From Arthrobacter agilis (GTDB lineage: Bacteria; Actinomycetota; Actinomycetes; Actinomycetales; Micrococcaceae), in assembly GCF_002157505.1 (NCBI RefSeq), contig NZ_NFSC01000029.1, positions 124,001-188,000 on the forward strand: 64,000 nucleotides of DNA. The letters run 5' to 3'. Shown here in pieces: positions 9,427 to 60,695 of the stretch; position 1 is the first letter of the stretch; each line of letters starts with the position of its first letter. Below the pieces are notes generated by a model, which was not told where the DNA came from, ran no database searches, and saw only the letters and a list, made by a program, of their open reading frames with translations. A program made the translations under genes and the position numbers.

Positions 9427-9453
9427 GCCTGTCCGCGGTCCTAGACTGACGGT

Positions 9454-10537: not shown

Positions 10538-10554
10538 ATAGGCTAGCCTTACTT
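10538..10554 (+). promoter_or_regulatory. DtxR/IdeR-type iron box
   Basis: ATAGGCTAGCCTTACTT matches the consensus TTAGGTTAGCCTAACCT at 13 of 17 positions, with the central palindrome AGGCTAGCCT. It lies 31 bases upstream of the first FecCD permease start, as expected for Fe2+-dependent repression of siderophore uptake. Confidence 0.7.
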
Positions 10555-10584
10555 CAGACCGATCGTCCGTCTGAGGGAGGCTCC

Positions 10585-11649
10585 ATGGCAGTCCATGCCT
10601 ACTCCCTGCGCCCGGCTCCCGTCGGGGATTCCCGCCCCGCCGTCCGCCGTTCCACCGGGGCGCGCACCCTGGTGAAGCTCCTTCTCGCGGCGTTGGTCCT
10701 CCTCGCATGCTGCCTCGCCTCGCTCACCATCGGGGCCCGTTCCGTGGGCCTCCCGACGATGATCGACGCCGTCACGGCCTTCGATCCCTCGAACGGCGAC
10801 CAGGCCGTCGTGCTCTCCCGCGTCCCCCGGACCGTCGTCGGCCTGCTCGTCGGCGCGGCACTGGCGACTGCCGGTGCCGCCCTGCAGGGCATCGCCCGGA
10901 ACCCGCTGGCAGACCCCGGCATCCTCGGCCTCAACGCCGGGGCCTCACTCGCGGTCGTCGTCGGCATCTACCTCTTCGGCCTCAGCAGCGCCTCCGGCTA
11001 CATCTGGTTCGCCTTCGCCGGCGCGGGCGCCGCGGCGCTCGCCGTCTACGCCGTGGCGAGCCTTGGGCGGGAGGGCGCGACGCCGGTGAAGCTCGCCCTC
11101 GCCGGCGCTGCGCTGGCGGCGGGACTCGCGAGCCTCACGAACGCCGTCCTCGTCTCGAGCCAGGAGACCCTGGACGCCTTCCGTTTCTGGCAGGTCGGCA
11201 CGCTGTCCGGCCGGGGCTGGGACGTCATCGGCGCCGTGGCCCCGTTCCTCCTCGGAGGACTCCTGCTGACCCTCGCGACGGGCAAGGTCCTCAACAGCCT
11301 GGCGCTGGGTGACGACGTCGCGCGCGGCCTCGGCCAGAACGTGAACCTGGCACGCGGCGGCACGGCACTGGGCGTCGTGGTCCTGTGCGGCGCGGCGACG
11401 GCCGCTGCCGGACCGGTCGCCTTCGTGGGACTCGTGATCCCGCATCTGGTGCGGCTCGCCGTCGGGCCGGACTACCGCTGGATCCTGCCGTTCTCCGCAC
11501 TCCTCGGACCCGTGCTGCTGCTCGGAGCCGACATCCTCGGCCGGGTCGTCCTGCCGCCGGGCGAGGTGCAGGTGGGCATCATGACGGCCGTGGTCGGTGC
11601 TCCCTTCTTCATCTGGCTCGTGCGCCGGCGCAGAATGGCACAGCTGTGA
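10585..11649 (+). CDS. FecCD-family iron-siderophore ABC permease (first)
   Basis: This 354-residue inner-membrane permease is of the FecCD/BtuC type with about ten helices. Family segments include VPRTVVGLLVGAALATAGAALQGIARNPLADPGILGLNAGAS and GPVAFVGLVIPHLVRLAVGPDYRWILP. It should form the channel with the second permease and the ATPase. It is the first gene of a four-gene operon behind an iron box and is translationally coupled to the next gene. No substrate-binding lipoprotein is encoded in the operon. Confidence 0.88.
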   Translation: MAVHAYSLRPAPVGDSRPAVRRSTGARTLVKLLLAALVLLACCLASLTIGARSVGLPTMIDAVTAFDPSNGDQAVVLSRVPRTVVGLLVGAALATAGAALQGIARNPLADPGILGLNAGASLAVVVGIYLFGLSSASGYIWFAFAGAGAAALAVYAVASLGREGATPVKLALAGAALAAGLASLTNAVLVSSQETLDAFRFWQVGTLSGRGWDVIGAVAPFLLGGLLLTLATGKVLNSLALGDDVARGLGQNVNLARGGTALGVVVLCGAATAAAGPVAFVGLVIPHLVRLAVGPDYRWILPFSALLGPVLLLGADILGRVVLPPGEVQVGIMTAVVGAPFFIWLVRRRRMAQL

Positions 11650-12732: not shown

Positions 12733-13650
12733 ATGGCTCCGCGCCAGGACCCGATGAGGCCGGACACGCTGTCCGCCGAGGGACTCACGCTCGCATACGA
12801 CGAGCGCACCGTCGTCGACGGCCTCTCCGTCGACCTGCCGGCCGGCCGGGTGACGGTGATCGTCGGTGCGAACGCGTGCGGCAAGTCGACGCTGCTGCGC
12901 GGGCTCGCACGCCTCCTCAAGCCGGCCGGAGGAACCGTGGTGCTCAACGGATCGGACATCCACGAGCAGTCCACGAAGGCTGTCGCACGCGTCCTCGGGC
13001 TCCTTCCGCAGACGCCGGTCGCTCCGGACGGCATCAGCGTCGCCGACCTCGTGGGGCGGGGCCGGTACCCCCACCAGGGCTGGTTCCGCCAGTGGACGCC
13101 CGACGACGACGCCGCCGTGGCGAGCGCCCTCGAGGCTACCGACACGCTCGCCCTTGCCGACCGCACCGTGGACGAGTTGAGCGGCGGGCAGCGCCAGCGC
13201 GTGTGGATCGCCATGGCCCTCGCGCAGCAGACGGGCATCCTGCTGCTCGACGAGCCCACCACCTTCCTCGACGTCACGCACCAGATCGAGGTCCTCGACC
13301 TCATCACCGACCTCAACCGGCGCTCGGGCACCACCGTCGTCATGGTGCTGCACGATCTCAACCTGGCCGCGCGCTACGCCGACCACCTCATCGCCATGCG
13401 GGACGGCCGGATCGTGGCCGAGGGGCCGCCGGCCGCCGTCGTCACCCGGGAGACGGTGTCACGCGTGTTCGACCTGGAGTGCCGGGTCATCGAGGACCCC
13501 GTGTCCGGCACGCCTCTGGTGGTTCCCATCGGCAGGCACCACGGCCCTTCACCCGTCCGCGCCCGGACGTCCCCCGCCGGCGAGCAGGCCCGGGGCTACC
13601 GACCCAATCCGCAGGACACCGTTCCGGCCCACGTGGAGGCAGCATCATGA
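12733..13650 (+). CDS. Iron-siderophore ABC transporter ATPase (FepC-like)
   Basis: This 305-residue ATPase has Walker A GANACGKST (residues 45-53), the ABC signature LSGGQRQRVWIAMALAQQ, Walker B ILLLDEPTTFLD and an H-loop VLHDLNLAARYADH. It should power the two FecCD permeases. The ATG lies one base after the upstream stop codon, with GGGAGG upstream. Residues beyond ~265 form a Pro/Arg-rich tail without a recognised domain. Confidence 0.9.
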   Translation: MAPRQDPMRPDTLSAEGLTLAYDERTVVDGLSVDLPAGRVTVIVGANACGKSTLLRGLARLLKPAGGTVVLNGSDIHEQSTKAVARVLGLLPQTPVAPDGISVADLVGRGRYPHQGWFRQWTPDDDAAVASALEATDTLALADRTVDELSGGQRQRVWIAMALAQQTGILLLDEPTTFLDVTHQIEVLDLITDLNRRSGTTVVMVLHDLNLAARYADHLIAMRDGRIVAEGPPAAVVTRETVSRVFDLECRVIEDPVSGTPLVVPIGRHHGPSPVRARTSPAGEQARGYRPNPQDTVPAHVEAAS

Positions 13651-14690
13651 CCGAGATGACTCAGCGCAGCGCCCGGCGGACCGCCGCCGACACCGAACCG
13701 ATGGTGCTGGCGTTCGACGTCGTCGTCATGGCCGTGCAGGATCTCAGCGCAACCTTCCGTCGCATCACCTTCGGCGGTGCATGCCTCGAGGCGTTCGGGG
13801 TGGCGGGGGACAGCCTCGACCTCCGGATCAAGCTCATCATCCCGCCGGCCGGCAGGGAGTGCCCCGACATCACAGCCATGATGGGGCGCGGGAACTGGTA
13901 CCAGCTGTGGCTCGGCATGGACGCGGAGGAGCGCGGGTCCATGCGCACCTACACCGTGCGCACCACCCGCCGCCGGGGCCCGCACACGGAGATCGACGTC
14001 GACTTCGTCCTGCACCTCGACGACGACGGCCGCGGCGGCCCGGCGTCGGAATGGGCCGCCGCCGCCCGGCCCGGCGACCGGGTGTGCATGATCGGCCCCA
14101 ACGCATCGGCGGCGCAGTGCAGGACGGCGGGTGCGTACGGGGGCATCGAGTGGAGCCCCGGCCTCGCCCAGCACGTCCTCCTCGCCGGCGACGAGACGGC
14201 CGTGCCGGCCATCAGCGCCATCCTCGAGGCACTTCCCGAGGACATCAGCGGCTCCGCGTTCCTCGAGGTGCCGGACGTGCACGACATCCAGCAGATCGTG
14301 ACGCGGTCGGCAGTGGCCATCACCTGGCTCGCGCGGAGGGGCCGGCCGCACGGCGTGCTGCTGGAAGCAGCCGTCCGGGACGCGGTGCGCGTCCCGGGCT
14401 GGGTGTCGCTCTCGGGCCCGGATGTCATGCAGGGGGGCAGCGAGCCCGAGGATGTCGACGTCGACGGGACCATCCTCTGGGAGACCCCGCAGCTGCTCGA
14501 CGCTGCCATCGTGCAGTCGACGGTGAATCCCGGGCGGCCATCGGGCACCCAGCCCTTCTACGCCTGGATCGCCGGTGAGGCTGCCGTTGTGCGCGGGTTG
14601 CGCCGCTACCTCGTGCGGGACGTGGGCGTGGACCGGAAACAGGTCGCCTTCATGGGCTACTGGCGCAAGGGGCGCGCAGAACTGGCCTGA
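13647..14690 (+). CDS. Siderophore-interacting protein (flavin-dependent ferric-siderophore reductase)
   Basis: This 347-residue protein of the SIP/ViuB family has an N-terminal FAD-binding barrel (AFDVVVMAVQDLSATFRRITFGG, then SMRTYTVRTTRRRGPHTEIDVDFVLH with the R-x-Y-T/S flavin motif). The NAD(P)H domain includes LAGDETAVPAISAILEALP and AWIAGEAAVVRGLRRYLVRDVGVDRKQVAFMGYWRKGRAE. It releases iron from imported siderophores by reduction in the cytoplasm. The ATGA overlap with the ATPase gene places it last in the iron operon. Confidence 0.9.
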   Translation: MTEMTQRSARRTAADTEPMVLAFDVVVMAVQDLSATFRRITFGGACLEAFGVAGDSLDLRIKLIIPPAGRECPDITAMMGRGNWYQLWLGMDAEERGSMRTYTVRTTRRRGPHTEIDVDFVLHLDDDGRGGPASEWAAAARPGDRVCMIGPNASAAQCRTAGAYGGIEWSPGLAQHVLLAGDETAVPAISAILEALPEDISGSAFLEVPDVHDIQQIVTRSAVAITWLARRGRPHGVLLEAAVRDAVRVPGWVSLSGPDVMQGGSEPEDVDVDGTILWETPQLLDAAIVQSTVNPGRPSGTQPFYAWIAGEAAVVRGLRRYLVRDVGVDRKQVAFMGYWRKGRAELA

Positions 14691-14775
14691 CGCCTCCTCC
14701 GAGCTGTCGAGGACAGGGTTCCCGCAGTGCGTGGGGCGACCTTTATCACATTTATCCCCACATGCGATAACGAAA

Positions 14776-14804
14776 TTGTAACTTCAAACGCGCTGACCTA
14801 GTGT
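14776..14804 (+). promoter_or_regulatory. Predicted promoter of the riboswitch-M23 transcript
   Basis: TTGTAA and TAGTGT are separated by 17 bases, which places transcription start near 14811, just upstream of the riboswitch. The surrounding DNA is locally AT-richer than the genes. Confidence 0.45.
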
Positions 14805-14840
14805 TTAAGCAGTCAAAGCTGGATTCCAGATCCAGGTCCG

Positions 14841-15045
14841 CACGCCTAACCCTGTCAGCGGACCGCCTGAACACATCATGACAGGGGTGGAGGACCCACT
14901 TTCCGGCGGCCTGAGCCGCCTCGGGGTGAAGCCCTCATGCACTGCATACAGTTCGGCCCCGCCTGCGGCTTTCCCGCGGTGGAGGGCCGCGCAGAGGGGC
15001 CGAGTCAACTCTTGCTCGAATCCGACAGCTAACTTCGCGGGCGTC
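14841..15045 (+). promoter_or_regulatory. Cyclic-di-AMP riboswitch (ydaO-yuaA class)
   Basis: The region carries conserved ydaO-type signatures: GGGGTGAAGCCC near 14922 and the 3' core TCCGACAGCTAAC near 15021-15033 followed by GGGCGT. The closing P1 stem pairs ACGCCT (14842-14847) with GGGCGT (15039-15044). Between them are GC hairpins of the expected arrangement. The class binds c-di-AMP and normally shuts off cell-wall hydrolase and K+ transport genes. It ends 17 bases before the start of the M23 peptidase gene, a frequent partner in actinobacteria. Confidence 0.85.
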
Positions 15046-50057: not shown

Positions 50058-50969
50058 CTAGGCGGAGCGCTTGGTGGGCGAGATGACCCGGATGACCGCC
50101 GAGTCGTCCGCAGCGGCCAGGCCCTGTGCCTGACCGAGCAGGTAGAGCTGTTCCGCGGCCGCGGCCACGGGAGCGGCCATTCCGGCGGCCCGGGTCGCCT
50201 TTCCCACGATGCCCATGTCCTTGACGAAGATGTCGAGGCGGCTGAGGACCTCGGCTCCCTCGTCCGAATAGGCCTCGAGCATTCGGGGCCCCCGATTCGA
50301 GAGCATGAAGGACCCGGCTGCGCCGGCTTCGAGGGCGGCGAGGGTCCGGGCCGGATCGAGTCCGAGGGCGTCCGCGAGGGCCATCGCCTCGGCTGCGGCC
50401 GCGATGTGCACGCCGCACAGCAGCTGGTTGACGGTCTTGAGGGCCTGACCGTCCCCGGGCTTGTCCCCGACCACCGTCAGGGTGGATGCCAGGAGCTCGA
50501 GCACGGGCCGAGCCAATTCCAGGGCAGCAGGGTCGGCTCCCACGACGATCAGGAGGTCGCCCTCGCCGGCGCGCTTCGGGCCGCCCGAGAGCGGTGCGTC
50601 GACCAGTGCGACACCGTACCCCGCGAGCCGCTCCACGGTTGCCGGCACGGCGTCGGTCCCCACGGTGCTGGTGAGGATGACGACGGCGCCTTCCCGCAGC
50701 ACGGGAGCCACTCCCTTGTCGCCGAACAGGACGTCATCGAGCTGTTCGCCGTTGCGTACGGCGAGCAGGAGCGCGTCGGTGCCGGTCGCTGCCTCCTGGG
50801 CGGAGGAGAAGGTGCGGATTCCCGCCTCCCGGGCCAGCGCGAGCCTCGGCTCGGCGATGTCGAAGCCGTGGACCGTGAGGCCTGTGGCCAGGCGGGTGGC
50901 CATCGGCAGACCCATGGCGCCGAGGCCGAGGACTGTGACGGAGTAGCTGTCGGTCATGGGTATCGCCAT
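50058..50969 (-). CDS. ltnD: LtnD-like 2-hydroxyacid (L-threonate/hydroxyisobutyrate-type) dehydrogenase
   Basis: This 303-residue beta-hydroxyacid dehydrogenase has NAD site VLGLGAMGLPMATRLA (residues 13-28). The substrate loop DAPLSGGPKRAGEGDL and catalytic-Lys stretch GDGQALKTVNQLLCGVHIAAAAEAMALADALGLD are also clear. By context (DUF1537 kinase next to it) it is probably an L-threonate or D-erythronate dehydrogenase giving the 2-oxo-tetronate; 3-hydroxyisobutyrate dehydrogenase is the alternative. ATG 50957 (MTDSYS) may be the true start. It is the last gene of the left C4 operon. Confidence 0.78.
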   Translation of the reverse strand: MAIPMTDSYSVTVLGLGAMGLPMATRLATGLTVHGFDIAEPRLALAREAGIRTFSSAQEAATGTDALLLAVRNGEQLDDVLFGDKGVAPVLREGAVVILTSTVGTDAVPATVERLAGYGVALVDAPLSGGPKRAGEGDLLIVVGADPAALELARPVLELLASTLTVVGDKPGDGQALKTVNQLLCGVHIAAAAEAMALADALGLDPARTLAALEAGAAGSFMLSNRGPRMLEAYSDEGAEVLSRLDIFVKDMGIVGKATRAAGMAAPVAAAAEQLYLLGQAQGLAAADDSAVIRVISPTKRSA

Positions 50970-50985
50970 CCAATGCTAGTGCGGG

Positions 50986-51042
50986 TGCTGTCTGGGGGTG
51001 CTGTCTGGGGGTGCTGCCTGAGGGTGCTGCCTGGGGGTGCTG
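50986..51042 (+). repeat. 13-bp tandem repeat between kinase and dehydrogenase genes
   Basis: Four complete units with 13-base period (TGCTGTCTGGGGG with variants CCTG and GAGGG) and a partial fifth fill 57 of the 74 bases between the two coding regions. On the mRNA strand the unit reads CCCCCAGACAGCA. No known repeat family is recognised. Confidence 0.7.
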
Positions 51043-51043
51043 G

Positions 51044-52528
51044 TCAGAAGGTGGCGCTGAGCTTCCTGGTGACCTGGGCGAGGGAGGAATCGTCTCCCAC
51101 GTTGCCGGCGAAGACGACGTACGGGATGCCCTTGGCGGGTCCGTCCACCGGCTCCCACAGGCTCACGATCCCCGGGAGCATCGGCCCCCGGACGACTGCC
51201 CGCCTGATCTGCAGCCCGTGCGCGGCCACGTCGGAGGAGGTGATGCCCCCCTTGGCGATCACGAAGCGGGGCGGGAAGATCTTCAGCGAACGGTTCACGA
51301 CGGCGACGACCGCGGCGGAGACGGTCCGCGCGATCCGAAGGCTGGCGGCCGCATCGCTGGTCCGAACGAGCAGGCGGCTCGTATGCAGGATGACGTCGCC
51401 CTCCGCGAGGCGTGCCACGACCTCCTCGACGATCCCGTCGAGGTGGCGGGCCGCGCGATCATCGAGGAGTTGCTCGACGTCGATCTCGATGATGTGCGCC
51501 CGCTGGTGCTGCTCGGTGAGGATGCGGAGTTGCCGGGTCGTGACCCCGACGTGCGAGCCGACCACGATCAGCCCGCCGGCAGTCGACGGCTCGTTGCCGG
51601 CATAGGCCTCGTCCCCGGTCAGTTCGGCCCGGATGTCCTGCCCGATCCGGGCCCGCATGAAGGGCGGTCCCACCCGGTACAGCAGCTTCTTGCCGCGGCG
51701 TTCCGCTTCGTCCAGGCCGAGCGCCAGGGCGCGCAGGTCGTTCTCCGTCACGATGTCGGCGACGATCGGTGTGGCATGCGTGGCCGTGCCGATGGCGTCC
51801 GCGATGGCCTTCGCCGATGCTGCCGGGCCACCGCCCGCGCTGCCTGCGCGGATGATGCCGAGGTCCAGCACGATCACGGAGTCCGCCGGGACCCGTCCGG
51901 CGCTCTTCTCCTCCACGTATTTGGCGAGCGAGGCATTGCGGTAGCCGAAGGTGGCGTCCTGGGCGAACTCGGTGTCGGACACCGGGACGAGCTGACCCGC
52001 GCCGGCGTCGGGCGCCCGCACGTAGTGCACCCCGCCGATGGTGACGCGCCCGGCATCGGGGAAGGCCGGGACGATGACGACGCCGTCGGTCGTTTCCCCC
52101 GTGGCATCGAGGACGGTGGCGGCGATGGTGTCGGGCTCGAGGGGGTAATGCCCGCGCAGGGTGGAGTCCGACCGGCTGACGAAGCTGACATGGATCCCCG
52201 CCGCCTCGGCGGCTGCTGCTGCGGCCAGTGCGTTCCGGACGATCTCCTCGTTCCGTGCTGCCGCCTCCGGCGCGTCGAGGCTCCGGGTGTTCGTGAGCAC
52301 GTAGACCGCAGGCTTTCCCTGCCGAAAGGCCCAGGAGAAGTCCTCGGCATCCCAGCGCGTCAGGACCGGTAGGTCCGCCACGGACTGCGTCCCGGTCGGG
52401 TCGTCGTCGAGGACGACGAAGATCCGGGGCAGGTCCTGTTGCGACGCCTGGACTGCCGTTGCCACCTCCCGTGCGGATATCGGCAGCTCTGCCGGGTAGC
52501 CGGACAGGAGGTCGGATTCGGTGGGCAT
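51044..52528 (-). CDS. Four-carbon acid sugar kinase (DUF1537 family)
   Basis: This 494-residue kinase has the N-terminal substrate domain motif VVLDDDPTGTQSVADLPVL with Asp-rich DDDPTGTQ and VSRSDSTLRGHYPLE. The C-terminal nucleotide domain includes FVIAKGGITSSDVAAHGL and PGIVSLWEPVDGPAKGIPYVVFAGNVG. DUF1537 enzymes phosphorylate 3-oxo- or 2-oxo-tetronates, or D-threonate/erythronate, at C4. The exact substrate is not readable. The ATG follows GGAG. A downstream OtnC-type decarboxylating aldolase or PdxA2 is not found in the locus. Confidence 0.85.
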   Translation of the reverse strand: MPTESDLLSGYPAELPISAREVATAVQASQQDLPRIFVVLDDDPTGTQSVADLPVLTRWDAEDFSWAFRQGKPAVYVLTNTRSLDAPEAAARNEEIVRNALAAAAAAEAAGIHVSFVSRSDSTLRGHYPLEPDTIAATVLDATGETTDGVVIVPAFPDAGRVTIGGVHYVRAPDAGAGQLVPVSDTEFAQDATFGYRNASLAKYVEEKSAGRVPADSVIVLDLGIIRAGSAGGGPAASAKAIADAIGTATHATPIVADIVTENDLRALALGLDEAERRGKKLLYRVGPPFMRARIGQDIRAELTGDEAYAGNEPSTAGGLIVVGSHVGVTTRQLRILTEQHQRAHIIEIDVEQLLDDRAARHLDGIVEEVVARLAEGDVILHTSRLLVRTSDAAASLRIARTVSAAVVAVVNRSLKIFPPRFVIAKGGITSSDVAAHGLQIRRAVVRGPMLPGIVSLWEPVDGPAKGIPYVVFAGNVGDDSSLAQVTRKLSATF

Positions 52529-52636
52529 GCAACACTCCGTCGTGTGGTCAGGCGAAAGCCTGGGTCTTCGGTTCCGGGGACGGAATCGACGGCGGCGGGT
52601 GGGGGAACCGCGCCGCCGCCGTCGATCCGATGGCCG

Positions 52637-54016
52637 TCAGTGGCCGGGTACTGCCGCTACCTTCTCGTCCTCCGGCAGCAGGTTGTCCGAGCGTGCCCGC
52701 ATGTTGCGGGTCAGGATGAACATCACCGCGGCGAGGAAGGCGAAGACTCCGACCGAGATGGTGCCGTAGAGGCCTGTCTCGGTCGTGAAGCGCTCGTCGA
52801 TCGCGGTGCGCATGATGGGGGCGACGAACCCTCCGAGGTTGCCCAGGGAGTTGATGAGTCCGATACCCGCTGCTGCTGCCGTGCCTGTGAGGAACGCCGT
52901 GGGGTAGGACCACGTGATGGGGCCGCAGGCCAGGAAGCTGGAGACGGAGACCACGAGGAAGGCGATCGCCAGGACCGGCATGCCGTTCTCGCCGGCGTAG
53001 GCAGCACCGATGGTCGCCAGGCCGGTGAGGGTGTAGAACATCGTGCCCCAGGTGCGGCGGCGCCGGATGGTGTTGGCGCGCTTGCCCACGTTGTAGCAGA
53101 CGAACAGGCCGACGAGCCAGGGGATGGCCGTGATCAGGCCGACCTGCCAGAACTCGGCGTCGGGGCTGATGATGGCCTTGACCTGCTGCGGGAGGTAGAA
53201 CGTCGTGCCGTAGACCGCCACCTGCAGGCAGAAGTAGATCACCGTGAAGTACCAGACCTTCCAGTTCCCCATGGCACGCAGGATGCCCGAGGGCCCGTCG
53301 GTGCTGCGGACGACGTCCTCCGCCTCCATGACCTTGACCAGGGCGCGCTTCTCGTCCTTGTCGAGCCACTTCGCGTCCTGCGGGCCATTGATCAGGAAGA
53401 AGATCGCGGCGATACCGGCGATCACGGCCAGCATCCCCTCGGTGAAGAACATGACCTGCCATCCGTGCCACGGCGTGTACGCGTCGCCGAAGGAGATCAG
53501 GGCACCGGACAGGGGGTTGCCGAGCATCTGGGAGAAGGGCTGGGCGAGGTAGAACAGTGCGAACATCTGGACGCGGACCTTGTTGGGGAACCACTCCGAG
53601 AGGAACATGATCACGCCCGGGAACAGCCCGGCCTCCGTGACGCCGAGGAGGAACCGCAGGACGATGAACATGGTGTCGCCGGTCGTGAAGGCGAAGGCCG
53701 CGGCCACGATGCCCCAGGTGATGGCGATGCGGGCCAGCCACCAGCGTGCGCCCAGCTTCCTGAGCACCAGGTTCGACGGGATCTCGAAGATCGCGTAACC
53801 GATGAAGAAGATGCCGGCGCCGAGGGCGAAGGCCCCGGCGGAGACGCCGCGGTCGACCTGGAGGGCTTCTTGTGCGTATCCCACATTCGTACGGTCGAGG
53901 AACGCGACGAAGTACAGGATGATGAGCATCGGCATCAGGTGCCGTGCAGCTTTCTTGACGGCTGAGGCAAGCGCGGGGCTGTCCAGGTCGTCTTTGACCG
54001 CGTCCGTAGCGGACAT
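52637..54016 (-). CDS. ACS-family MFS transporter for an organic or sugar acid
   Basis: This 459-residue transporter has 12 helices. It shows the anion:cation symporter hallmarks YFVAFLDRTNVGYAQEAL, IFFIGYAIFEIPSNLVLRKLGARWWLARI and FLLGVTEAGLFPGVIMFLSEWFP. Relatives import tartrate, hexuronates or four-carbon acids with H+. Placement beside the DUF1537 kinase and LtnD-like gene suggests uptake of threonate or erythronate. AAGGAG precedes the ATG. A TGTTGG triplet repeat (54034-54051) lies in its leader. Confidence 0.85.
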   Translation of the reverse strand: MSATDAVKDDLDSPALASAVKKAARHLMPMLIILYFVAFLDRTNVGYAQEALQVDRGVSAGAFALGAGIFFIGYAIFEIPSNLVLRKLGARWWLARIAITWGIVAAAFAFTTGDTMFIVLRFLLGVTEAGLFPGVIMFLSEWFPNKVRVQMFALFYLAQPFSQMLGNPLSGALISFGDAYTPWHGWQVMFFTEGMLAVIAGIAAIFFLINGPQDAKWLDKDEKRALVKVMEAEDVVRSTDGPSGILRAMGNWKVWYFTVIYFCLQVAVYGTTFYLPQQVKAIISPDAEFWQVGLITAIPWLVGLFVCYNVGKRANTIRRRRTWGTMFYTLTGLATIGAAYAGENGMPVLAIAFLVVSVSSFLACGPITWSYPTAFLTGTAAAAGIGLINSLGNLGGFVAPIMRTAIDERFTTETGLYGTISVGVFAFLAAVMFILTRNMRARSDNLLPEDEKVAAVPGH

Positions 54017-54061
54017 GGGCCTCTCCTTAGTGCTGTTGGTGTTGGTGTTGGGTGGTGCGAC

Positions 54062-54160
54062 TCATCCCACGAGCGACGGGAGGATGAGCCAGGCCCCGAT
54101 CACGACGAGGATGACCCCGACGGCGAGGAACAGGATGCGGGACTTCGACCAGTCGCCCAT
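54062..54160 (-). CDS. 32-residue single-helix membrane protein
   Basis: This short gene encodes MGDWSKSRILFLAVGVILV followed by VIGAWLILPSLVG. It has a polar N-terminus and one membrane helix from about residue 8 to 30. It begins one base after the SDR stop codon (TGACATG), so translation is likely coupled, and ends 45 bases before the MFS transporter start on the same strand. Its position and composition suggest a small partner of the transporter. Length below common annotation cut-offs explains why it may be missed. Function is inferred only from context. Confidence 0.6.
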   Translation of the reverse strand: MGDWSKSRILFLAVGVILVVIGAWLILPSLVG

Positions 54161-54161
54161 G

Positions 54162-54932
54162 TCAGTGCATGTAGAGTCCGCCGTCGACGTTCAGGGTCTG
54201 GCCCGTCACGAATCCGGCGTCCTCGCTGATGAGGTAGGCGATGGCTGCTGCGATGTCACGGGGGGTGCCGATCCGCGGGAGGACGCCGTCGGCCGCCATG
54301 GCAGCCTTGCGTTCCTCCGTGAGCGTCCCACCCATGATGTCCGTGTCGATGGGACCGGGGGAGATGGCGTTGACGGTGATGCCCGCCCCGCCCAGTTCAC
54401 GCGCCACGGAGCGCGTGAATCCGATGACCCCGGCCTTCGCCGCGGAGTAGACGGTCTTGGAGAACGTCCCTCCGCCGCGCTGCGCGGAGACCGAGGACAG
54501 GTTGACGACCCGCCCGACGCCGTTCCCGACCATGGACTCGACGGCCCGCCGGGTGGCGTAGTGGACGCCGTTCATGTTGATGCTCATGACGCGGTCCCAC
54601 TCCTCGGAGGTGACCTCGAGGTAAGGCACGGGACTGGAGACCCCGGCGAGGTTCACCAGTGCCACGACCTGCGGGAGCTCGGCCTCAAGACTGTCGAAGG
54701 CCGCCCGTACCTCGGACTCGTTGGCGACATTGGCCCCGGCCCCGGCCGCCGTGACGCCGTGCTCCTCCGCGATCTCGCGGGCGACGGCCTTCGCCGCGGC
54801 ATCGTCGAGGTCGATGATGCCGATGTTCCAGCCGAGTCCTGCAAGGTAGTGGGCGGACGCGCGGCCGATGCCGCGCGGCGAGGCCGCGCCGGTGAGGACG
54901 ACCGACCTGGAGTCGGGGAATGCTGGTGCCAC
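54162..54932 (-). CDS. Short-chain dehydrogenase/reductase
   Basis: This 256-residue classical SDR has cofactor motif TGAASPRGIGRASA (residues 14-27), NLAG, catalytic Ser-Tyr-Lys (NLSSVSAQ, then VYSAAKAGV) and ISPGPIDTDI. It oxidises a polyol or hydroxy acid with NAD(P)+. In this operon a tetritol, tetronate or lactone substrate is likely. The GTG start has AGGAGG upstream. It lies 18 bases after the 3-hydroxyacyl-CoA-dehydrogenase-type gene and leads directly into the 32-residue membrane protein. Confidence 0.85.
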   Translation of the reverse strand: MAPAFPDSRSVVLTGAASPRGIGRASAHYLAGLGWNIGIIDLDDAAAKAVAREIAEEHGVTAAGAGANVANESEVRAAFDSLEAELPQVVALVNLAGVSSPVPYLEVTSEEWDRVMSINMNGVHYATRRAVESMVGNGVGRVVNLSSVSAQRGGGTFSKTVYSAAKAGVIGFTRSVARELGGAGITVNAISPGPIDTDIMGGTLTEERKAAMAADGVLPRIGTPRDIAAAIAYLISEDAGFVTGQTLNVDGGLYMH

Positions 54933-54950
54933 GATAGGGCCTCCTTGCGA

Positions 54951-55904
54951 TCAGTGGATGGGTGCAGGACCGAGTTCGTCCATGAGTTTCTTGATGGCCA
55001 CGTAGGCCTTGTTGCGGTAGGCGATCAGCTCGGCGGTGCGCTCCGCCGGGACGTCGAGGTAGCCGGATCCAGTCTTGGTCCCGAAGTGTCCGGCGTCCAC
55101 GAGTTGCTTCAGCGAATCGGGTGTTGCGAAACGCTCGGGCCAGCGGGTCTGCAGGGACGCGTAGCAGAAGGCGTAGACGTCGAGCCCTGCCATGTCCGCG
55201 ATGGCGAACGGGCCGAAGACGGGGAGCCGGAAGCCGAAGGTCGTGCGGACGATCGTGTCGACGTCGTCCGCGGTCGCGATGCCCTCCTCGACGATCTGGG
55301 TCGCCTCGTGGAACAGGGCGTACTGGAGCCGGTTCAGCACGAAGCCGGTGGCGTCCTTCACGCGCGCCGTCTCCTTGCCCGTGGAGGCGACGATCTCCTC
55401 GACCACCGGGATGATCCCGTCATCGGTCCCCGGGTGCGGGATGAGCTCGACGCCGGGGATGAAGGGGGCGGGATTCGAGAAGTGGACGCCGAGGAACCGC
55501 TCGGGATGCTCCACGGCCTCCGCGAGGCTGGCGATCAGGATGGTGGAGGTGTTCGAACCGATGATGGCGTCCGGACGGGCGGCCGCCGAGATCCGCCGCA
55601 GTGTCTCGTGCTTGATCTCGATCCGTTCCGGCACCGCCTCCTCGATGAACTCCGCGTCGGACACGGCGTCCTCGATGGAGTCGGCGGCGGAGACGTTCGC
55701 CTCGATGCGCTGGCGCGCATCCGCGGGGAACAGGCCGTCGGCGGCGAACTGGTCCGCCTCGGACAGCAGCCGCGCGAGGTTCGACGACGCTATCTCGGCG
55801 CTCACATCCGCGATCCGGACGGTGTGGCCGGCCAGGGCGAGGACCTGGGCGATGCCGCCGCCCATGTATCCCGATCCGACGACTGCGATTCTCTTCGGTG
55901 TCAT
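54951..55904 (-). CDS. 3-hydroxyacyl-CoA dehydrogenase-type oxidoreductase
   Basis: This 317-residue protein has Rossmann motif VVGSGYMGGGIAQVLALAGH (residues 8-27), HFSNPAPFIPGVELIPHPGT and a C-terminal helical domain (GFVLNRLQYALFHEATQIVEEGIATADDVD...GPFAIADMAGLDV). This architecture is shared by 3-hydroxybutyryl-CoA, L-gulonate 3- and L-carnitine dehydrogenases. In an acid-sugar operon an L-gulonate-dehydrogenase-like 3-oxidation of an aldonate is the best guess. The ATG overlaps the upstream isomerase stop (ATGA). It is part of the left C4 operon. Confidence 0.82.
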   Translation of the reverse strand: MTPKRIAVVGSGYMGGGIAQVLALAGHTVRIADVSAEIASSNLARLLSEADQFAADGLFPADARQRIEANVSAADSIEDAVSDAEFIEEAVPERIEIKHETLRRISAAARPDAIIGSNTSTILIASLAEAVEHPERFLGVHFSNPAPFIPGVELIPHPGTDDGIIPVVEEIVASTGKETARVKDATGFVLNRLQYALFHEATQIVEEGIATADDVDTIVRTTFGFRLPVFGPFAIADMAGLDVYAFCYASLQTRWPERFATPDSLKQLVDAGHFGTKTGSGYLDVPAERTAELIAYRNKAYVAIKKLMDELGPAPIH

Positions 55905-56845
55905 GCGTCCTTCTTCCCAGGCAGGAGTGAGCGGATGTAGGTCTGGTTGGTGCCGCAGTTCCCGAGGCTGTCCCCGCCGTAGTGCTCGCACAGGAAGATG
56001 CCGTCGAAACCGAGCTCGATGGCGTCGCGGATCACCTGGCGGTAATTGATCAGCCCGGCCTCCATCGAGCTGGGAACGCTCGTCGCCCACGAGCCGTCGG
56101 CGGCCTCGTCGCGCGTGTAGTTCTTGACGTGCCAGTAGTTGGCGTAGGGGAGGAGCTTCGTGTGGAGTTCACGCCAGTCCTCGACCGGGCGGTGCAGGCG
56201 GATGAGGTTGGCGACATCGGGGTTGATCCCCACGTTGTCGAGGCCGATCTCCTCCACGAGGCGCACGGCGCTGTCCGCGGTGCCGAGGTAGGTGTCCTCG
56301 TACAGCTCCAGCGACATCTTCAGTCCGACGTCGGCGGCATGCCGACCGAGTTCCCGCAGCCGCGTGACCGCGGCCTGCCATACCTCCGGGTCGTCGGGAT
56401 CCTTGGGTCCCTCCGCCGTCCAGAACCAGAGGGCGCGGCGCTGTGCCTCGCTGAAGGGCTGGTGGAGTCCGGTGGAGAAGACCTCCATGCCCCATTCGGC
56501 TGCCGCGTCGATCGTGCGGTGTGCGTAGGCGAGGTTGCGTTCCTCGTGGCCTGGCATGATGACGCTCTGCCGCTGCAGGTGGACCGACGGGATCCGTACG
56601 CCGTGCGAGGCCGCGATGGACAGGAACTCGTCGCGCCGGGACGGCTCGAGGTCGGCGGGACGGACGTGACTGTCGGCCAGTTCGGCGAGCGAGAATCCGA
56701 CGTGTTCCACCTGGGTGAACATGTCGTCCCACGCCTCCGGGTCGGCGTCGTGGAGGGCGACGCCCTCCTTGCTCACCGTCGGGATGCCGTGCAGGCAGGT
56801 GGCGATCGGCCAGTCCTGGGCAGTGAATGCGGGCTGCGAAGGCAT
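55901..56845 (-). CDS. TIM-barrel sugar (phosphate) isomerase/epimerase
   Basis: This 314-residue AP-endonuclease-2-like TIM barrel has metal and substrate residues in MSLELYEDTYLGTADSAV, NVGINPDVANLIRL, YWHVKNYTRD and FLCEHYGGDS, as in xylose-isomerase-like epimerases. It could do the 2-oxo/3-oxo-tetronate isomerisation normally done by OtnI, but it is longer than OtnI (~260 residues). It is the first gene of the left C4 operon, 42 bases downstream of a CTATAGGA operator. Start at ATG 56845 after GGAG. Confidence 0.8.
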   Translation of the reverse strand: MPSQPAFTAQDWPIATCLHGIPTVSKEGVALHDADPEAWDDMFTQVEHVGFSLAELADSHVRPADLEPSRRDEFLSIAASHGVRIPSVHLQRQSVIMPGHEERNLAYAHRTIDAAAEWGMEVFSTGLHQPFSEAQRRALWFWTAEGPKDPDDPEVWQAAVTRLRELGRHAADVGLKMSLELYEDTYLGTADSAVRLVEEIGLDNVGINPDVANLIRLHRPVEDWRELHTKLLPYANYWHVKNYTRDEAADGSWATSVPSSMEAGLINYRQVIRDAIELGFDGIFLCEHYGGDSLGNCGTNQTYIRSLLPGKKDA

Positions 56846-56886
56846 GTCGTTGCTCCGTTGCAATCGGGGGGAGGAGGAAAGAAAAG

Positions 56887-56900
56887 ATCCTATAGGAAAT
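56887..56900 (-). promoter_or_regulatory. GntR-type operator for the left C4 operon
   Basis: ATCCTATAGGAAAT contains the perfect palindrome TCCTATAGGA (56888-56897). It lies just downstream of a predicted -10. A near-identical site precedes the dhaK operon at 60683-60695 (ATTCTATAGGATA). Both flank the GntR gene region, so the FadR/GCD-type GntR encoded here is the likely repressor. Confidence 0.6.
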
Positions 56901-56926
56901 ATAGACGGACCTCCGGGGCTCTGCAA
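56898..56926 (-). promoter_or_regulatory. Predicted promoter of the left C4 operon
   Basis: On the minus strand TTGCAG (56921-56926) and TATATT (56898-56903) are separated by exactly 17 bases. The GntR-type palindrome begins directly after the -10, an arrangement suited to repression. Confidence 0.6.
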
Positions 56927-56957
56927 GACCTCATGCAGCTGTTTTTAAGGTTGCTTC

Positions 56958-57674
56958 TCAGGTGCCGGGAGAGTCGTCCAGGGAACGGGCGCGCACGCCC
57001 TCGATGTGGGCCCGCAGGGCCGCGACGGGCGAGGAGGGGTCCCCGCTGGCGAAGGCCTCCAGGATGGCGGCGTGCTCGACGGCGGCCTCGGAGACATCGC
57101 TCGTCCCCCGGATGACGGCCTGGCGCATCCGGTGCGTGAGCGCCCCGAGATTGGCGTACATGTCCTGCACGTAGCGGTTGCCGGCGGCATCCAGGATCAC
57201 CAGGTGGAAGGCGTTGTCGGCGTCGAAGTAGTCATGGATGGTGCGGATGGGTACCTCGCCGCCCCGCATCGCGTCGGTGACCCGCTCGCCCATCAGGTGG
57301 TGGTGTTCGTGGGCCTGCTGCAGGGCGGGCAGGAAGGATGCTGCGCGGGGGGCCGCGAGTCGCGCCGCCTCGACCTCGAGCATGATGCGGGCCTCGAACA
57401 GTTCGTCGAGCTGCTCCGGCCCGAGGGGAGGCGCGACGCGGTAGCCCTTGAGGGCCTCGCGAGTCACCAGGCCCGTGCGCTCGAGCTGGACCATGGCCTC
57501 GCGGATGGGTGTCGGGGAGACCTTGAGCTGCTTCGCCAGCGTGTCGATCGAGAGCCTCGCCCCCGGTTCCATCTCGCTCGAGAGGAGGATGTCGAGGATC
57601 CGGTCGTACACCCGGTCCCGCAGCCCGCGCCGGTCGATGTCCGGAACGGAACGGTCAGAAAGCCCTGCTGCCAT
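56958..57674 (-). CDS. GntR-family (FadR/FCD subfamily) regulator
   Basis: This 238-residue regulator has an N-terminal winged helix (~15-80: LRDRVYDRILDILLSSEMEPGARLSIDTLAKQLKVSPTPIREAMVQLERTGLV). A C-terminal all-helical FCD ligand domain follows, with likely metal/ligand His in YFDADNAFHLVIL, GALTHRMR and EHAAILEAF. It overlaps the TIM-like isomerase gene by 20 bases and is last in the right operon. It probably binds the TCCTATAGGA-type sites and responds to a C4 intermediate. Confidence 0.88.
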   Translation of the reverse strand: MAAGLSDRSVPDIDRRGLRDRVYDRILDILLSSEMEPGARLSIDTLAKQLKVSPTPIREAMVQLERTGLVTREALKGYRVAPPLGPEQLDELFEARIMLEVEAARLAAPRAASFLPALQQAHEHHHLMGERVTDAMRGGEVPIRTIHDYFDADNAFHLVILDAAGNRYVQDMYANLGALTHRMRQAVIRGTSDVSEAAVEHAAILEAFASGDPSSPVAALRAHIEGVRARSLDDSPGT

Positions 57675-58443
57675 CGCCAACCCCAATTCTCCAGGCCTCG
57701 TCCAGAATGGCCCCGAACGCAGCCGGGTCGTGTGCGAAGCGACCGAGGAACATGCCGTCGACATCCGGAGCGATGCGCGTCAGGAGGCCGGGGCCGGCAC
57801 TCCCTCCGTAGATTACCCGTGCATGCTGCAGTAGTCCGTCTCCGGACAGGTGGGAGCGCAGGGCGCGGGTGACGGCGCGGATGTGGGAATCGGGTGCGGG
57901 TTCCGGCTGCCCGATCGCCCAGACCGGCTCGTAGGCCACGATGATCGTCCCGCCGGTCCCTTCGCGGCGGGCGACAGCGAGGCACGCCTCGAGCTGGCGC
58001 AGGCACGCCTCGACCGCCGACGCATGCTCGCCCCGTTCCTCCTCGCCGATGCAGAGGACCGGCACCAGCCCGTGACGGAGGCTCGCATGGACCTTCCGGG
58101 CGGCGGAGGAGTCCGTCTCGCCGAACATCGACCTGCGCTCCGCATGGCCGATCTCCACGAGCCCGACGCCCAGCTCGGCCAGCTCCGCTGCCGAGACCTC
58201 CCCGGTGAAGGCGCCGGCGTCCTCCCAATGGACGTCCTGCGCTCCCACGAGCAGGCCCGCGGGAGCAGCCAGGTCCAGGACGGCGGGAATGGAGGGGAAG
58301 GTCGGAATGACGAAGGGTTCCACCACTCCGTCCCGTACCGCGGGGTGCGCCGATGCGATCTCCGCCACCCGCCGGGTCCAGTCGACCTGGCGCTGGTGGC
58401 CGAAATACATCTTCAGGCTGGAGCCGATGGTGAACCTCGGCAT
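57655..58443 (-). CDS. Triosephosphate isomerase-like L-erythrulose-1-phosphate isomerase
   Basis: This 262-residue TIM-family protein has catalytic His in VEIGHAERRSMFGE and Glu in VAYEPVWAIG, plus phosphate loop IYGGSAG. The N-terminal active-site region is IGSSLKMYFG: Lys11 is kept, but the Asn of true TIM (N-x-K) is Ser. Next to a DhaK-type kinase and an RpiB-like isomerase, this points to the EryH/LerI role (L-erythrulose-1-P to D-erythrulose-4-P) rather than glycolytic TIM. Start at ATG 58443, six bases from the rpiB stop. Confidence 0.82.
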   Translation of the reverse strand: MPRFTIGSSLKMYFGHQRQVDWTRRVAEIASAHPAVRDGVVEPFVIPTFPSIPAVLDLAAPAGLLVGAQDVHWEDAGAFTGEVSAAELAELGVGLVEIGHAERRSMFGETDSSAARKVHASLRHGLVPVLCIGEEERGEHASAVEACLRQLEACLAVARREGTGGTIIVAYEPVWAIGQPEPAPDSHIRAVTRALRSHLSGDGLLQHARVIYGGSAGPGLLTRIAPDVDGMFLGRFAHDPAAFGAILDEAWRIGVGDGSRAF

Positions 58444-58449
58444 GGGTCG

Positions 58450-58905
58450 TTACACGCCCTCGTAGGCGAGGATGTCGTCCACCTTGGCCTTCGACGCACT
58501 CGAGGTGTCGAACGTGTAGGTCAGCCACTCCCGCACGAGCCGGCGGGCGAGTTCGATGCCGACGACGCGCTGGCCCATGCAGAGCACCTGGCAGTCGTTG
58601 GACAGGACGGACCGCTCCACGGAGAAGGGGTCGTGGGCCGTGGCGGCACGGATGCCCTGCACCTTGTTCGCGGCGATGGCGACACCGATCCCGGTGCCGC
58701 AGATGAGGAGCGCGCGGTCCGCCTCGCCCCTCGCGACCCGCTCGGCGGCCTCAATGGCGACCTTGGGGTAGGGCGTGTGGCCGTCCGGTCCCACGCCGAC
58801 GTCGACCACCGACTCGACGAGGTCGTTCTGTTCGAGATCCTTCTTCAGGATCTCCTTGTACTCGTATCCCGCGTCGTCGCAGCCGATGATGAGCCTGAGG
58901 GCCAT
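58450..58905 (-). CDS. RpiB-family isomerase (D-erythrulose-4-phosphate isomerase-like)
   Basis: This 151-residue RpiB/LacAB-fold protein has [15 protein letters not shown] (phosphate/base region) and the catalytic Cys in [23 protein letters not shown]. In this operon it most likely acts as EryI/DerI, converting D-erythrulose-4-P to D-erythrose-4-P for the pentose phosphate pathway. Ribose-5-phosphate isomerase activity is the alternative. It lies eight bases after dhaK. Confidence 0.88.
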
Positions 58906-58913
58906 GTTCTCTC

Positions 58914-60656
58914 CTAGTGATCCTGCGGGCTGGTGCCCGGAGCGCTACTGATGACGTCCGCGACGGTGGTGCAGATGAGCGCGAAGGACACTGCGCCGGG
59001 GTCGGGCGTGCCGACTGATTTGTCTCCATGGGCCCGCGCGCGCCCGAGGGTCGCCTTCATCGCCGTCGTGGCTTCCGCCGCGGCGGTGGCTGCGGATGCG
59101 GCTCCCGACCACGCCTCGACGAGCCCCTGCCCGTCGCCGATCCGCGCCGACAGTTCGTCGGAGAACGGCACGATCGCGTCGATCATGGTCTTGTCGCCGA
59201 CCTTCGCTTTCCCGAAGGCCATGACGGCGTCACTGGCTGCCGACACTCCTCGCGCGAGGTCCTCGGCGGTGGGCCGCGCTTCGTCGCCGATCACCGTTCC
59301 GAGGGCCTTGAGGATGGTCGCCCAGATGGCGCCCGAGGTCCCGCCGGCGCGGTCGCTCCAGGCGTTGGCGGCGTGCCGCAGTGCCGTCTCGGCGCCGGCG
59401 CCCTGCCCGACGGCGGCGCGTGCCGCGTCCCGTGCGGCGTGGGCGCCGCGCTGCATCCCGATGCCGTGGTCGCCGTCGCCCGCCACCTGGTCCAGCCGGC
59501 CGAGTTCGTCGGCATGCTCGTCCACGATGCGTGCGACGGCGTCGAGGGCCGTGGCGATGGTGGCCGCGCAGGCGCGGGATTCGGCGGATGAACTGCCGAC
59601 CGTCTCCTCGGCGTCGTCCTTGACCTCCGCGTCGAAGCGCTGCTGCTCGGCGACCTGTCCGCGGCGGAAGCCGGGGGTGTCCGCCGGCGCTGTCCAGAGG
59701 CGTTCGAGCTCGTCGTCGAGCCACAGGAGGGTGAGGGAGCAGCCGGCCATGTCGAAGCTGGTGCACAGTTCGCCGACCTCTGGGTCGACGATGCTGATGC
59801 CGCGTTCGCCGAGCAACTGATGGACGGTGCGGTAGACGACGAAGAGCTCCTCGTACTTCACGCTGCCGAGGCCGTTCAGCAGGGGTACGACCCGCGCGCC
59901 CTCGAGGGAGACGCCGTCCGGGACCTCTTCGAGGAGGCGGGTGACGAACAGTTCGGCGAGGCCCGCTGCCGTGGGGATGTCCACCTCGTCGATGCCTGGC
60001 TCTCCATGGATGCCCAGTCCAACGGCCATGCGGCCTTCCGGAACCTCGAAGAGGGGAGCGTCGGCGCCGGGAAGGGTACAGCCTCCGAAGGCGACTCCGA
60101 GGGAGCGCGTCCGATCGTTCGCGCGGCGGGCGACGCGCTCGACGCCGTCGAGGTCGTAGCCCTCCTCACACGCCGCGCCGGCGACCTTGAACACCGTGAG
60201 GTCACCTGCGATGCCGCGCCGCTTGTGCTCCTCGCCCTTCGGCGCGCTGAAGATGTCGTCGGTCACGGTCACCGTGCGGACGTCCATCCCGGCCTCGCGC
60301 AGTTCGGCCTGCGCCTCGTCGAAGTGCAGGACGTCGCCCGCGTAGTTCCCGTAACTCAGGAGGACGCCCCGGCCCTGGTCGGCGGTCCGGGCGACCGTAC
60401 GGACCTGGTGTGCCGACGGCGATGCGAAGAGGTTGCCCATCACGGCTCCGTGCGCCAGGCCTGGCCCCACGAGGCCGCCGAACGCCGGGTAGTGTCCGCT
60501 GCCGCCCCCGATGACCAGGGAGACCGTCGGTGTTGCCGAGCGGCCCGCGCGGACGACGCCCCCCGGGATCTGCTGGACCCAGCGCGAGGCCGCAGCCGCG
60601 AAGCCGCTGATCATCTCGTCGACGAAGTCCCCGGGCTCATTGAACAGTCGCGTCAT
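58914..60656 (-). CDS. Fused DhaK-DhaL kinase (erythrulose/dihydroxyacetone kinase)
   Basis: This 580-residue single-chain ATP-dependent kinase has a DhaK domain (~1-330) with [31 protein letters not shown] and the covalent-substrate His in [13 protein letters not shown] linker is followed by a DhaL domain (~375-575) with the Mg-ATP loop [18 protein letters not shown]. Such fusions include the D- and L-erythrulose kinases DerK/LerK of Mycobacterium; the neighbouring isomerases favour erythrulose over dihydroxyacetone. ATG at 60656 follows AGGAGG. It is the first gene of the right C4 operon. Confidence 0.88.
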
Positions 60657-60682: not shown

Positions 60683-60695
60683 ATTCTATAGGATA
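60683..60695 (-). promoter_or_regulatory. GntR-type operator and promoter of the dhaK operon
   Basis: ATTCTATAGGATA shares the CTATAGGA core with the site at 56887-56900. On the minus strand TTGCCC and TAGAAT are spaced 16 bases and the -10 lies inside the palindrome, so binding would block transcription. The site ends 27 bases before the kinase start codon. Confidence 0.6.

Follow-up and report, generated by a model that had tools for sequence, protein, structure and literature searches.

The subject of this analysis is a cluster of ten genes in a 64-kb stretch of Arthrobacter agilis DNA (the window; all 64,000 nucleotides of it were analysed, and the host genome comprises 3.88 Mb in 31 contigs), which we consider a candidate pathway from a sugar acid through a tetrulose to D-erythrose-4-phosphate. 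According to the open reading frames of the window, all ten genes lie on the minus strand and fill positions 50058-60656. In the order of transcription they encode a DhaKL kinase, an RpiB-type isomerase, a triosephosphate isomerase (TPI)-like protein and a GntR regulator, followed by a TIM barrel of the AP_endonuc_2 / xylose-isomerase-like family (PF01261; APTIM hereafter), a 3-hydroxyacyl-CoA-dehydrogenase-type enzyme (HCDH), a short-chain dehydrogenase (SDR), a major facilitator superfamily (MFS) transporter, a DUF1537 kinase and an LtnD-like dehydrogenase (Table 1). Four of the starts given there are inferred and differ from those of the longest open reading frames (APTIM, 56845; HCDH, 55904; GntR, ca. 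57674; DhaKL, 60656). A sequence-only reading made earlier had named these ten genes and their families; the genes lie where it placed them, and profile searches agree with its assignments. It had also remarked that OtnC and PdxA2 are missing. Neither is present in the locus, and the best match to the OtnC model in the whole 3.88-Mb genome reaches 73.9 bits, below the cut-off of 250.

Table 1. Genes and operator-like sites of the cluster, by position in the window
Feature	Positions	Strand	Basis
LtnD-like 2-hydroxyacid dehydrogenase (3-hydroxyisobutyrate dehydrogenase superfamily), accessory	50058..50969	-	PF03446+PF14833
DUF1537-type acid-sugar kinase, accessory	51044..52528	-	PF07005+PF17042
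MFS transporter, scoring best with an anion:cation symporter (ACS, sugar-acid) model	52637..54016	-	TIGR00893, 253.1 bits, cut-off of 395 not reached
Short-chain dehydrogenase (SDR)	54162..54932	-	PF13561/PF00106
HCDH, proposed beta-hydroxyacid dehydrogenase	54951..55904	-	PF02737+PF00725
APTIM, candidate 3-oxo-acid decarboxylase or tetrulose epimerase with a probable metal requirement	55913..56845	-	PF01261, solved relative 5tnv
Palindromic operator-like site TCCTATAGGA, 5' of the TIM-barrel operon	56888..56897	.	Palindrome counts
GntR/FCD regulator that probably reads the palindrome	56958..57674	-	PF00392/PF07729
TPI-like isomerase, LerI-like	57655..58443	-	PF00121, structure matches, tree
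RpiB-type isomerase, DerI-like	58450..58905	-	PF02502, TIGR02133
Fused DhaK-DhaL ketose kinase, LerK-like	58914..60656	-	PF02733+PF02734 (Dak1+Dak2), NF011049
Operator-like site TTCTATAGGA, one mismatch from a perfect palindrome, 5' of the DhaKL operon	60684..60693	.	Palindrome counts

The cluster was compared with 117 loci (116 distinct, as L092 and L155 are the same), all of which were picked for encoding APTIM, so that the counts are conditional on that gene and the sample is not random. The set consists of the best 80 of 236 public-genome relatives, 6 of 95 plasmid records, 16 loci from the window's family, hand-picked to span identity classes, and 15 from the window's class; the presence of genes was scored by tblastn. 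DhaKL accompanies APTIM in 100 of the 117 loci. The dehydrogenase beside APTIM is HCDH only in 90 loci, a PdxA-like protein only in 18, both in 1 and neither in 8. By set, the public-genome loci have HCDH in 70 cases, PdxA in 7, both in 1 and neither in 2; the plasmid loci have PdxA in 5 and HCDH in 1; the family loci have HCDH in 11, PdxA in 3 and neither in 2; and the class loci have HCDH in 8, PdxA in 3 and neither in 4. DhaKL is found in 80/90 of the HCDH loci, 16/18 of the PdxA loci, 3/8 of those with neither and the one locus with both (1/1). RpiB occurs in 55/80 public-genome, 1/6 plasmid, 11/16 family and 12/15 class loci, TPI in 66/80, 1/6, 14/16 and 10/15, respectively; among the public-genome loci, SDR is present in 60/80, and a GntR gene was detected in 75/80. 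The LtnD and DUF1537-type kinase genes are much less regular companions (19/117 and 23/117, together in 18).

The order of the genes is shuffled among lineages, as in L111 (APTIM-DhaKL-RpiB-HCDH-SDR-MFS-TPI), L130 (TPI-HCDH-RpiB-DhaKL-APTIM, on the minus strand) and L133 (GntR-TctA-APTIM-DhaKL-RpiB-PdxA-TPI). Because the same gene set recurs in many genomes with its genes reordered, the arrangement is not a chance one. The TIM barrel itself is widely distributed: within the window's family, 68 of 245 genomes encode it (E <= 1e-30), as do 19 of 394 genomes sampled from its class (E <= 1e-40), and the 95 plasmid records with a relative of it (E <= 1e-5) are mostly from Sinorhizobium.

Both operons of the window are preceded by the same short palindrome, which reads TTTCCTATAGGATC upstream of APTIM and TATCCTATAGAATG, one base off a perfect palindrome, upstream of DhaKL. 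The pattern TYCTATAGRA, composed after both sites were known, has 2 matches in the 64-kb window, against 0.01 expected, and 3 in the whole genome, of which 2 are at this locus. The third (C21:197306-197315) has no recognisable target among the nearby open reading frames. A count was made of all perfect 10-base palindromes, none of them preselected, in 75 non-redundant loci. TCCTATAGGA ranks first in it, both before APTIM (46/75 loci, next best 3) and before DhaKL (31/61, next best 3), and it stands before the two together in 27 of 61 loci, where the next palindrome does so in 1. It precedes HCDH in 3 of 53 loci and is outside the four commonest palindromes before SDR, MFS, RpiB and TPI. The 86 public-genome and plasmid loci (80 and 6) hold 123 sites in all: 70 before APTIM, 45 before DhaKL, 2 before PdxA, 2 before GntR and 4 to which the script gave no target, one of which lies before the APTIM gene of L092 and three before an additional carrier gene in Sinomonas. 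DhaKL lies downstream in the same orientation in 16 of 18 Curtobacterium loci, and 15 of these have a single site at APTIM and none at DhaKL; a further Curtobacterium locus (L071) has the site and no DhaKL in the stretch. Because the palindrome is shared by both, we regard the two operons as one regulon, and the earlier suggestion of one regulator for both is supported to that extent. The regulator that reads the palindrome is probably the GntR protein of the cluster, as we infer from their co-occurrence.

The genes of the DhaKL operon resemble those of L-erythrulose catabolism. DhaKL has both the Dak1 and the Dak2 domain and scores 745 bits with NF011049 (cut-off 492), and the RpiB protein scores 201.6 bits with TIGR02133 (RPI_actino; cut-off 168.2) and 137.2 with the rhizobial DerI model, under its cut-off of 240. 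A housekeeping TPI is encoded elsewhere in the genome (C21:97296) and scores 290.8 bits, against 185 for the TPI-like protein of the window; because of this other, stronger TPI, we do not take the TPI-like protein for the glycolytic enzyme. A second, weaker TPI copy was found in 10 of the 12 genomes tested. Among solved structures, the window's protein matches the putative TPI 3s6d (156.9 bits), then the L-erythrulose-1-phosphate isomerase 11ef (139.9) and then the next TPI (126.4), and the TPI of the L150 cluster scores 241.7 bits with 11ef and at most 142.8 with the other chains listed. In a tree of TPI proteins, 12 housekeeping enzymes are split from 11ef and 23 cluster-type copies (which include two identical pairs and, from L168, a copy that lies away from its APTIM) by a branch with support of 100/100. 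According to PMC10733421, L-erythrulose-1-phosphate is turned into erythrose-4-phosphate by LerI and DerI when they act in E. coli. The assignment of the right-hand operon to a route from L-erythrulose to erythrose-4-phosphate, made in the sequence-only reading, is strengthened by these results, since the TPI paralogue falls outside the housekeeping clade and its nearest solved relative of specific function is 11ef.

The other operon differs among relatives in its dehydrogenase. A quick tree of APTIM was built from 76 rows; 22 of its 73 inner branches are well supported, and several branches are long. On this tree the HCDH/PdxA state of the neighbouring gene changes at least 8 times, and when the PdxA rows are contrasted with the remainder, 9 changes are required, at least 4 of which well-supported branches make unavoidable. 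PdxA travels with TctA (TCT carboxylate transporter), which is present in 16 of the 18 PdxA loci, as opposed to none of the 90 HCDH-only loci. An Agrococcus locus (L026) has both the HCDH and the PdxA set, with a palindrome of its own at the PdxA gene. Common to the 3HCDH and PdxA families is the oxidation, dependent on nicotinamide adenine dinucleotide (NAD), of a hydroxyl beta to a carboxyl. Their exchange can mean that one reaction is carried out by two enzymes or that two acids converge on one intermediate; that it is recurrent points to beta-hydroxyacid oxidation. The best solved relative of HCDH is 4om8 (162.4 bits), which dehydrogenates a free carboxylate, in a near tie with a 3-hydroxybutyryl-CoA dehydrogenase (159.9 bits).

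The carriers vary as well. MFS transporters of the ACS kind are encoded in 65 of the 117 loci and TctA in 18; TctCBA takes the place of the MFS protein in some, and a GntP-family permease is found in two (L149 and L150), both of which have HCDH and an APTIM protein in which the N-terminal motif of 5tnv can be seen by eye. Three Sinomonas loci encode an extra carrier, again with an ACS-type best model (below cut-off), whose gene is preceded by the palindrome. Because three unrelated acid-type carrier families (ACS-MFS, TctCBA and GntP) adjoin the same enzymes, the substrate is best understood as an acid. The SDR of the window scores 146.8 bits with the GolD/DthD model, against a cut-off of 286, and its best matches, also under cut-off, are FabG-like.

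The closest solved relative of APTIM is 5tnv, a Mg-containing Mycobacterium smegmatis protein whose title gives no function. An AlphaFold model of APTIM (mean predicted local distance difference test score, pLDDT, of 85.5) matches the fold of 5tnv and then, among the best 50 neighbours, mostly ketose 3-epimerases, UlaE and D-tagatose 3-epimerase among them; with such neighbours, the fold is compatible with a 3-oxo-acid decarboxylase as well as with a tetrulose 3-epimerase. When APTIM was considered as a candidate OtnI-type 2-oxo-tetronate isomerase, the only curated models to match were those of D-psicose 3-epimerase and L-ribulose-5-phosphate 3-epimerase, weakly (27 and 21 bits). Nine residues are invariant in 25 aligned rows. 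From what is known of the 3-epimerases, four of them (E180, D210, H239 and E287) would comprise the metal ligands and a pair of catalytic glutamates. The other five (R216, H218, R219, K241 and R245) suit an acidic, or phosphorylated, substrate.

Taken together, we lean, with a little more belief than doubt, towards reading the two operons as one regulon and one linear pathway that would lead from a sugar acid to a tetrulose and on to D-erythrose-4-phosphate. The sugar acid, for which a five-carbon aldonate is the likeliest candidate, would be imported by the ACS-type MFS carrier and oxidised with NAD by HCDH, or in relatives by the PdxA-like enzyme in its stead, at the hydroxyl beta to the carboxylate. 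The 3-oxo acid would lose CO2, and the TIM barrel would either catalyse this loss or convert the tetrulose formed into the isomer suited to the kinase. DhaKL would then phosphorylate the tetrulose, probably L-erythrulose, at C1; the LerI-like TPI paralogue would convert L-erythrulose-1-phosphate to D-erythrulose-4-phosphate, and the DerI-like RpiB would turn this into D-erythrose-4-phosphate, which could enter the pentose phosphate pathway. GntR is envisaged to repress both operons at TCCTATAGGA until the substrate or an intermediate releases the repression, and LtnD and the DUF1537 kinase would form an optional cassette for a second acid. The sequence-only reading had instead proposed a separate acid-sugar branch with no recognised final step. 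Its erythrulose module and its single regulator are supported, and the separate branch is not: because LtnD and the kinase are optional, and APTIM with a beta-hydroxyacid-type dehydrogenase (HCDH or PdxA-like, in 109 of 117 loci) is the usual partner of DhaKL, we favour one linear route whose acid side ends in the tetrulose of DhaKL.

As to the substrate, oxidation at C3 and decarboxylation turn a pentonate into erythrulose and a tetronate into dihydroxyacetone. We favour a pentonate because dedicated TPI-like and RpiB-like isomerases are present. Pentonates of the L configuration yield L-erythrulose, the substrate of LerK, and a C5 aldonate fits best. In one locus (L147), which reads APTIM-DhaKL-RpiB-HCDH, an alpha-L-arabinofuranosidase-type gene lies directly behind HCDH (13324-14949); it would fit L-arabinonate as the substrate.

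Several of the genera that carry the cluster are known to be plant-associated, namely Curtobacterium, Clavibacter, Rathayibacter, Plantibacter and Sinorhizobium. In L086, an adjacent pair of same-family genes lies 5' of GntR-APTIM-PdxA (5229-7466), and the first of them matches Amidohydro_2; these amidohydrolase-family genes could encode sugar lactonases. One specific form of the proposed pathway, doubtful as it stands, would be a route of ascorbate breakdown, in which L-xylonate and/or L-lyxonate is oxidised at C3 by the 3HCDH- or PdxA-type enzyme and decarboxylated to L-erythrulose, which is passed on to erythrose-4-phosphate, while LtnD and the DUF1537 kinase take up L-threonate. L-Threonate, L-lyxonate and L-xylonate are listed as products of ascorbate breakdown in plants in PMC11066805, and PMC11276620, in a mammalian context, names L-xylonate, L-lyxonate or L-erythrulose. 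Given the plant-associated carriers, the amidohydrolases of L086 and the breakdown of ascorbate to L-pentonates, a role in the decay of vitamin C is attractive and unproven. Were it true, the cluster would constitute a so far undescribed bacterial route for the breakdown products of plant vitamin C, of which L-erythrulose is itself one, and the barrel would found a new family of decarboxylases or tetrulose epimerases, with 5tnv as the sole solved member found.

Other readings of the same genes were weighed. L-Threonate or erythronate might be oxidised at C3 in the unphosphorylated state to give dihydroxyacetone, which DhaKL would convert to dihydroxyacetone phosphate and the TPI-like enzyme to glyceraldehyde-3-phosphate. 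PdxA-type enzymes are known in C4 acid-sugar routes (NCBIfam has a D-threonate 4-phosphate dehydrogenase, with which five cluster proteins score 185-205 bits, cut-off 583), LtnD and the DUF1537 kinase are encoded close by in the window, and the rhizobial loci have DhaKL only, with no TPI or RpiB beside it. Such a route, however, would duplicate the housekeeping TPI that the genome already has, and the cluster TPIs group with L-erythrulose-1-phosphate isomerase, outside the housekeeping enzymes. It also leaves no role for RpiB, which is nonetheless present in most public-genome, family and class loci (55/80, 11/16 and 12/15), and we think it rather unlikely. A route from D-apionate, in which the dehydrogenase would be an oxidoisomerase and the barrel an OiaC-like 3-oxo-isoapionate decarboxylase that forms L-erythrulose, would suit the plant-associated habit of several carrier genera, and the decarboxylation of 3-oxo-isoapionate to L-erythrulose has reportedly been described (by Carter, in a D-apiose study of 2018). 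The beta carbon of D-apionate, though, is a tertiary alcohol and not directly oxidisable, whereas 3HCDH and PdxA enzymes typically act on beta-hydroxyls, and no typical apiose gene was seen among 30 flanking proteins scanned by Pfam, a small part of the flanks; this makes D-apionate quite unlikely. To the version in the sequence-only reading, in which a tetritol/erythrulose operon and a C4 acid-sugar operon are distinct and share a regulator by chance, we give very little credence. It accounts for the LtnD-like dehydrogenase and DUF1537 kinase in the left operon and the LerK/LerI/DerI-like genes in the right one, and the ABC carriers of some relatives would suit a neutral sugar. Yet the acid-sugar genes are optional, OtnC is nowhere above cut-off in the genome, the SDR is far under the GolD/DthD cut-off, and the carriers identified are most often of the acid type (MFS and TctA).

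Several observations weigh against the linear pathway from a pentonate that we prefer. With ATCCTATAGGAT and up to two mismatches, the window has 2 matches against 0.24 expected, which was equalled in 2 of 100 shuffles. The palindrome is lacking in two Curtobacterium loci, one with DhaKL downstream on the same strand (L084) and one with it on the opposite strand (L090), and in the five rhizobial plasmid loci. In these rhizobial loci DhaKL is present and tblastn found neither TPI nor RpiB within ca. 20 kb, so a C3 product would fit them too. At the tetrulose end, sequence comparison places the window TPI only modestly nearer to 11ef than to classical TPIs (139.9 vs 126.4 bits), its top match being a putative TPI, and its clade (13 rows) is distinct from that of 11ef (11 rows); because of this separation, LerI-like is as strong a term as is warranted. 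As for the acid side, no decarboxylase is among the 50 best fold neighbours listed for the barrel, and PdxA enzymes decarboxylate by themselves, which would leave the barrel the role of an isomerase. The PdxA-like proteins that were scanned (n=5) are below every PdxA cut-off (e.g. 241.8 vs 290.35), which marks them as a divergent group. HCDH and PdxA might also serve two acids that converge on the barrel, as the double set of L026 would allow. Carriers of other kinds occur as well: an ABC solute-binding protein (SBP_bac_8) in L151, ABC permeases in L148 and, some kilobases off, in L065, and, following PdxA in L086 and L088, a gene of the EamA type. Neither this MFS protein nor TctA was found in 26 HCDH loci, most of them uninspected for other carriers. 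The SDR, finally, has no explained step in the proposed pathway.

The LtnD-like protein scores best with the L-threonate dehydrogenase model (245.3 bits, cut-off 350), and the DUF1537 kinase reaches 59.4 bits with the D-threonate kinase model (cut-off 450). Their position varies, from after the MFS gene (in the window and several Microbacterium loci) to before APTIM (Sinomonas) or beside TPI (L154), and a DUF1537 kinase is absent from all 18 PdxA-only loci. On the simplest reading the two provide a second acid input, probably for a C4 acid such as L-threonate. The pairing of PdxA2 with a DUF1537 kinase does not occur in the locus. Elsewhere in the genome, a PdxA homologue (C24:342331-343296) scores 310.1 bits, above the cut-off of 290.35, and a DUF1537-like kinase gene lies directly before it; the pair (C24 ca. 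341030-343341) is a predicted kinase-plus-PdxA2-type C4 acid-sugar module away from the locus.

The cluster has parts in common with four systems. L-Erythrulose/tetritol catabolism through LerK, LerI and DerI in M. smegmatis, reportedly the work of Huang in 2015, likewise has a DhaKL-type kinase and TPI-like and RpiB-like isomerases in one operon and ends in erythrose-4-phosphate; unlike it, the present cluster has no recognised tetritol dehydrogenase (the SDR being under the GolD/DthD cut-off, with EltD not compared), its carriers are mostly of the acid type, and a beta-hydroxyacid-type dehydrogenase and a TIM barrel precede the module. Four-carbon acid-sugar catabolism, said to have been set out by Zhang in 2016, proceeds via LtnD, OtnI, OtnK/DtnK and OtnC or PdxA2. 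The window shares with it the LtnD-like protein and the DUF1537 kinase, and relatives share a PdxA-like enzyme, but here OtnC is not above cut-off genome-wide, and the kinase and LtnD are under the curated cut-offs and optional. In the D-apionate pathway, which is said in the work of Carter to run via 3-oxo-isoapionate (ApnO, OiaC) to L-erythrulose, a C5 acid is oxidised to a 3-oxo acid and decarboxylated to L-erythrulose, as proposed here; compared by description only, it differs in that our dehydrogenases belong to families that typically act on beta-hydroxyls and that the few neighbours scanned include no recognised apiose gene. Aerobic L-ascorbate catabolism, reportedly described by Stack in 2020, uses an amidohydrolase and a PdxA-family oxidative decarboxylase that acts on 2-carboxy-L-lyxonate. 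It resembles the present system in a PdxA-family enzyme for an unphosphorylated sugar acid, a substrate possibly derived from plant ascorbate and the amidohydrolase-family genes of L086, but it passes via L-lyxonate to alpha-ketoglutarate, whereas here the end would be erythrose-4-phosphate. Among the matches listed in a literature search of titles and opening abstract lines, none describes this cluster, which appears to be new as sugar-acid catabolism through the erythrulose module, itself a known kind of route. The partners are probably filed under misleading names (3-hydroxyacyl-CoA dehydrogenase, PdxA, dihydroxyacetone kinase and triosephosphate isomerase); the barrel is widespread, with a solved relative, 5tnv, that has no named function, and the operator offers a direct handle on the pathway.

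A few loci depart from the usual pattern. A part in inositol catabolism was considered and rejected: in three Clavibacter loci (L055, L062 and L067) the barrel and HCDH lie behind genes of the iolC, iolA, iolB and iolD types (assigned by clustering and single-representative profiles), and because this is seen only in Clavibacter we regard it as local adjacency. The IolE-like match in those genomes is a separate one, ca. 11-14 kb off (144-148 bits, below the cut-off of 290), and the window barrel gives no match to an IolE model at E 1e-3. Of the loci with neither dehydrogenase, L034 and L146 are at contig ends, and five (L069, L132, L136, L142 and L153) also lack DhaKL; the barrels of these five may serve another purpose. 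The L132 genome has one close APTIM copy and a second, diverged one; the latter lies in a region (7469-11502) with three genes for SDR proteins and one for GntR and with no DhaKL module, a context in which the barrel may be used otherwise. In L148 (5400-14800), the barrel, DhaKL and RpiB, with no recognised dehydrogenase, adjoin an adenosine-deaminase-like gene and one for an ABC permease of the BPD_transp_2 type, and the substrate there is perhaps a nucleoside-linked C4 acid or sugar.

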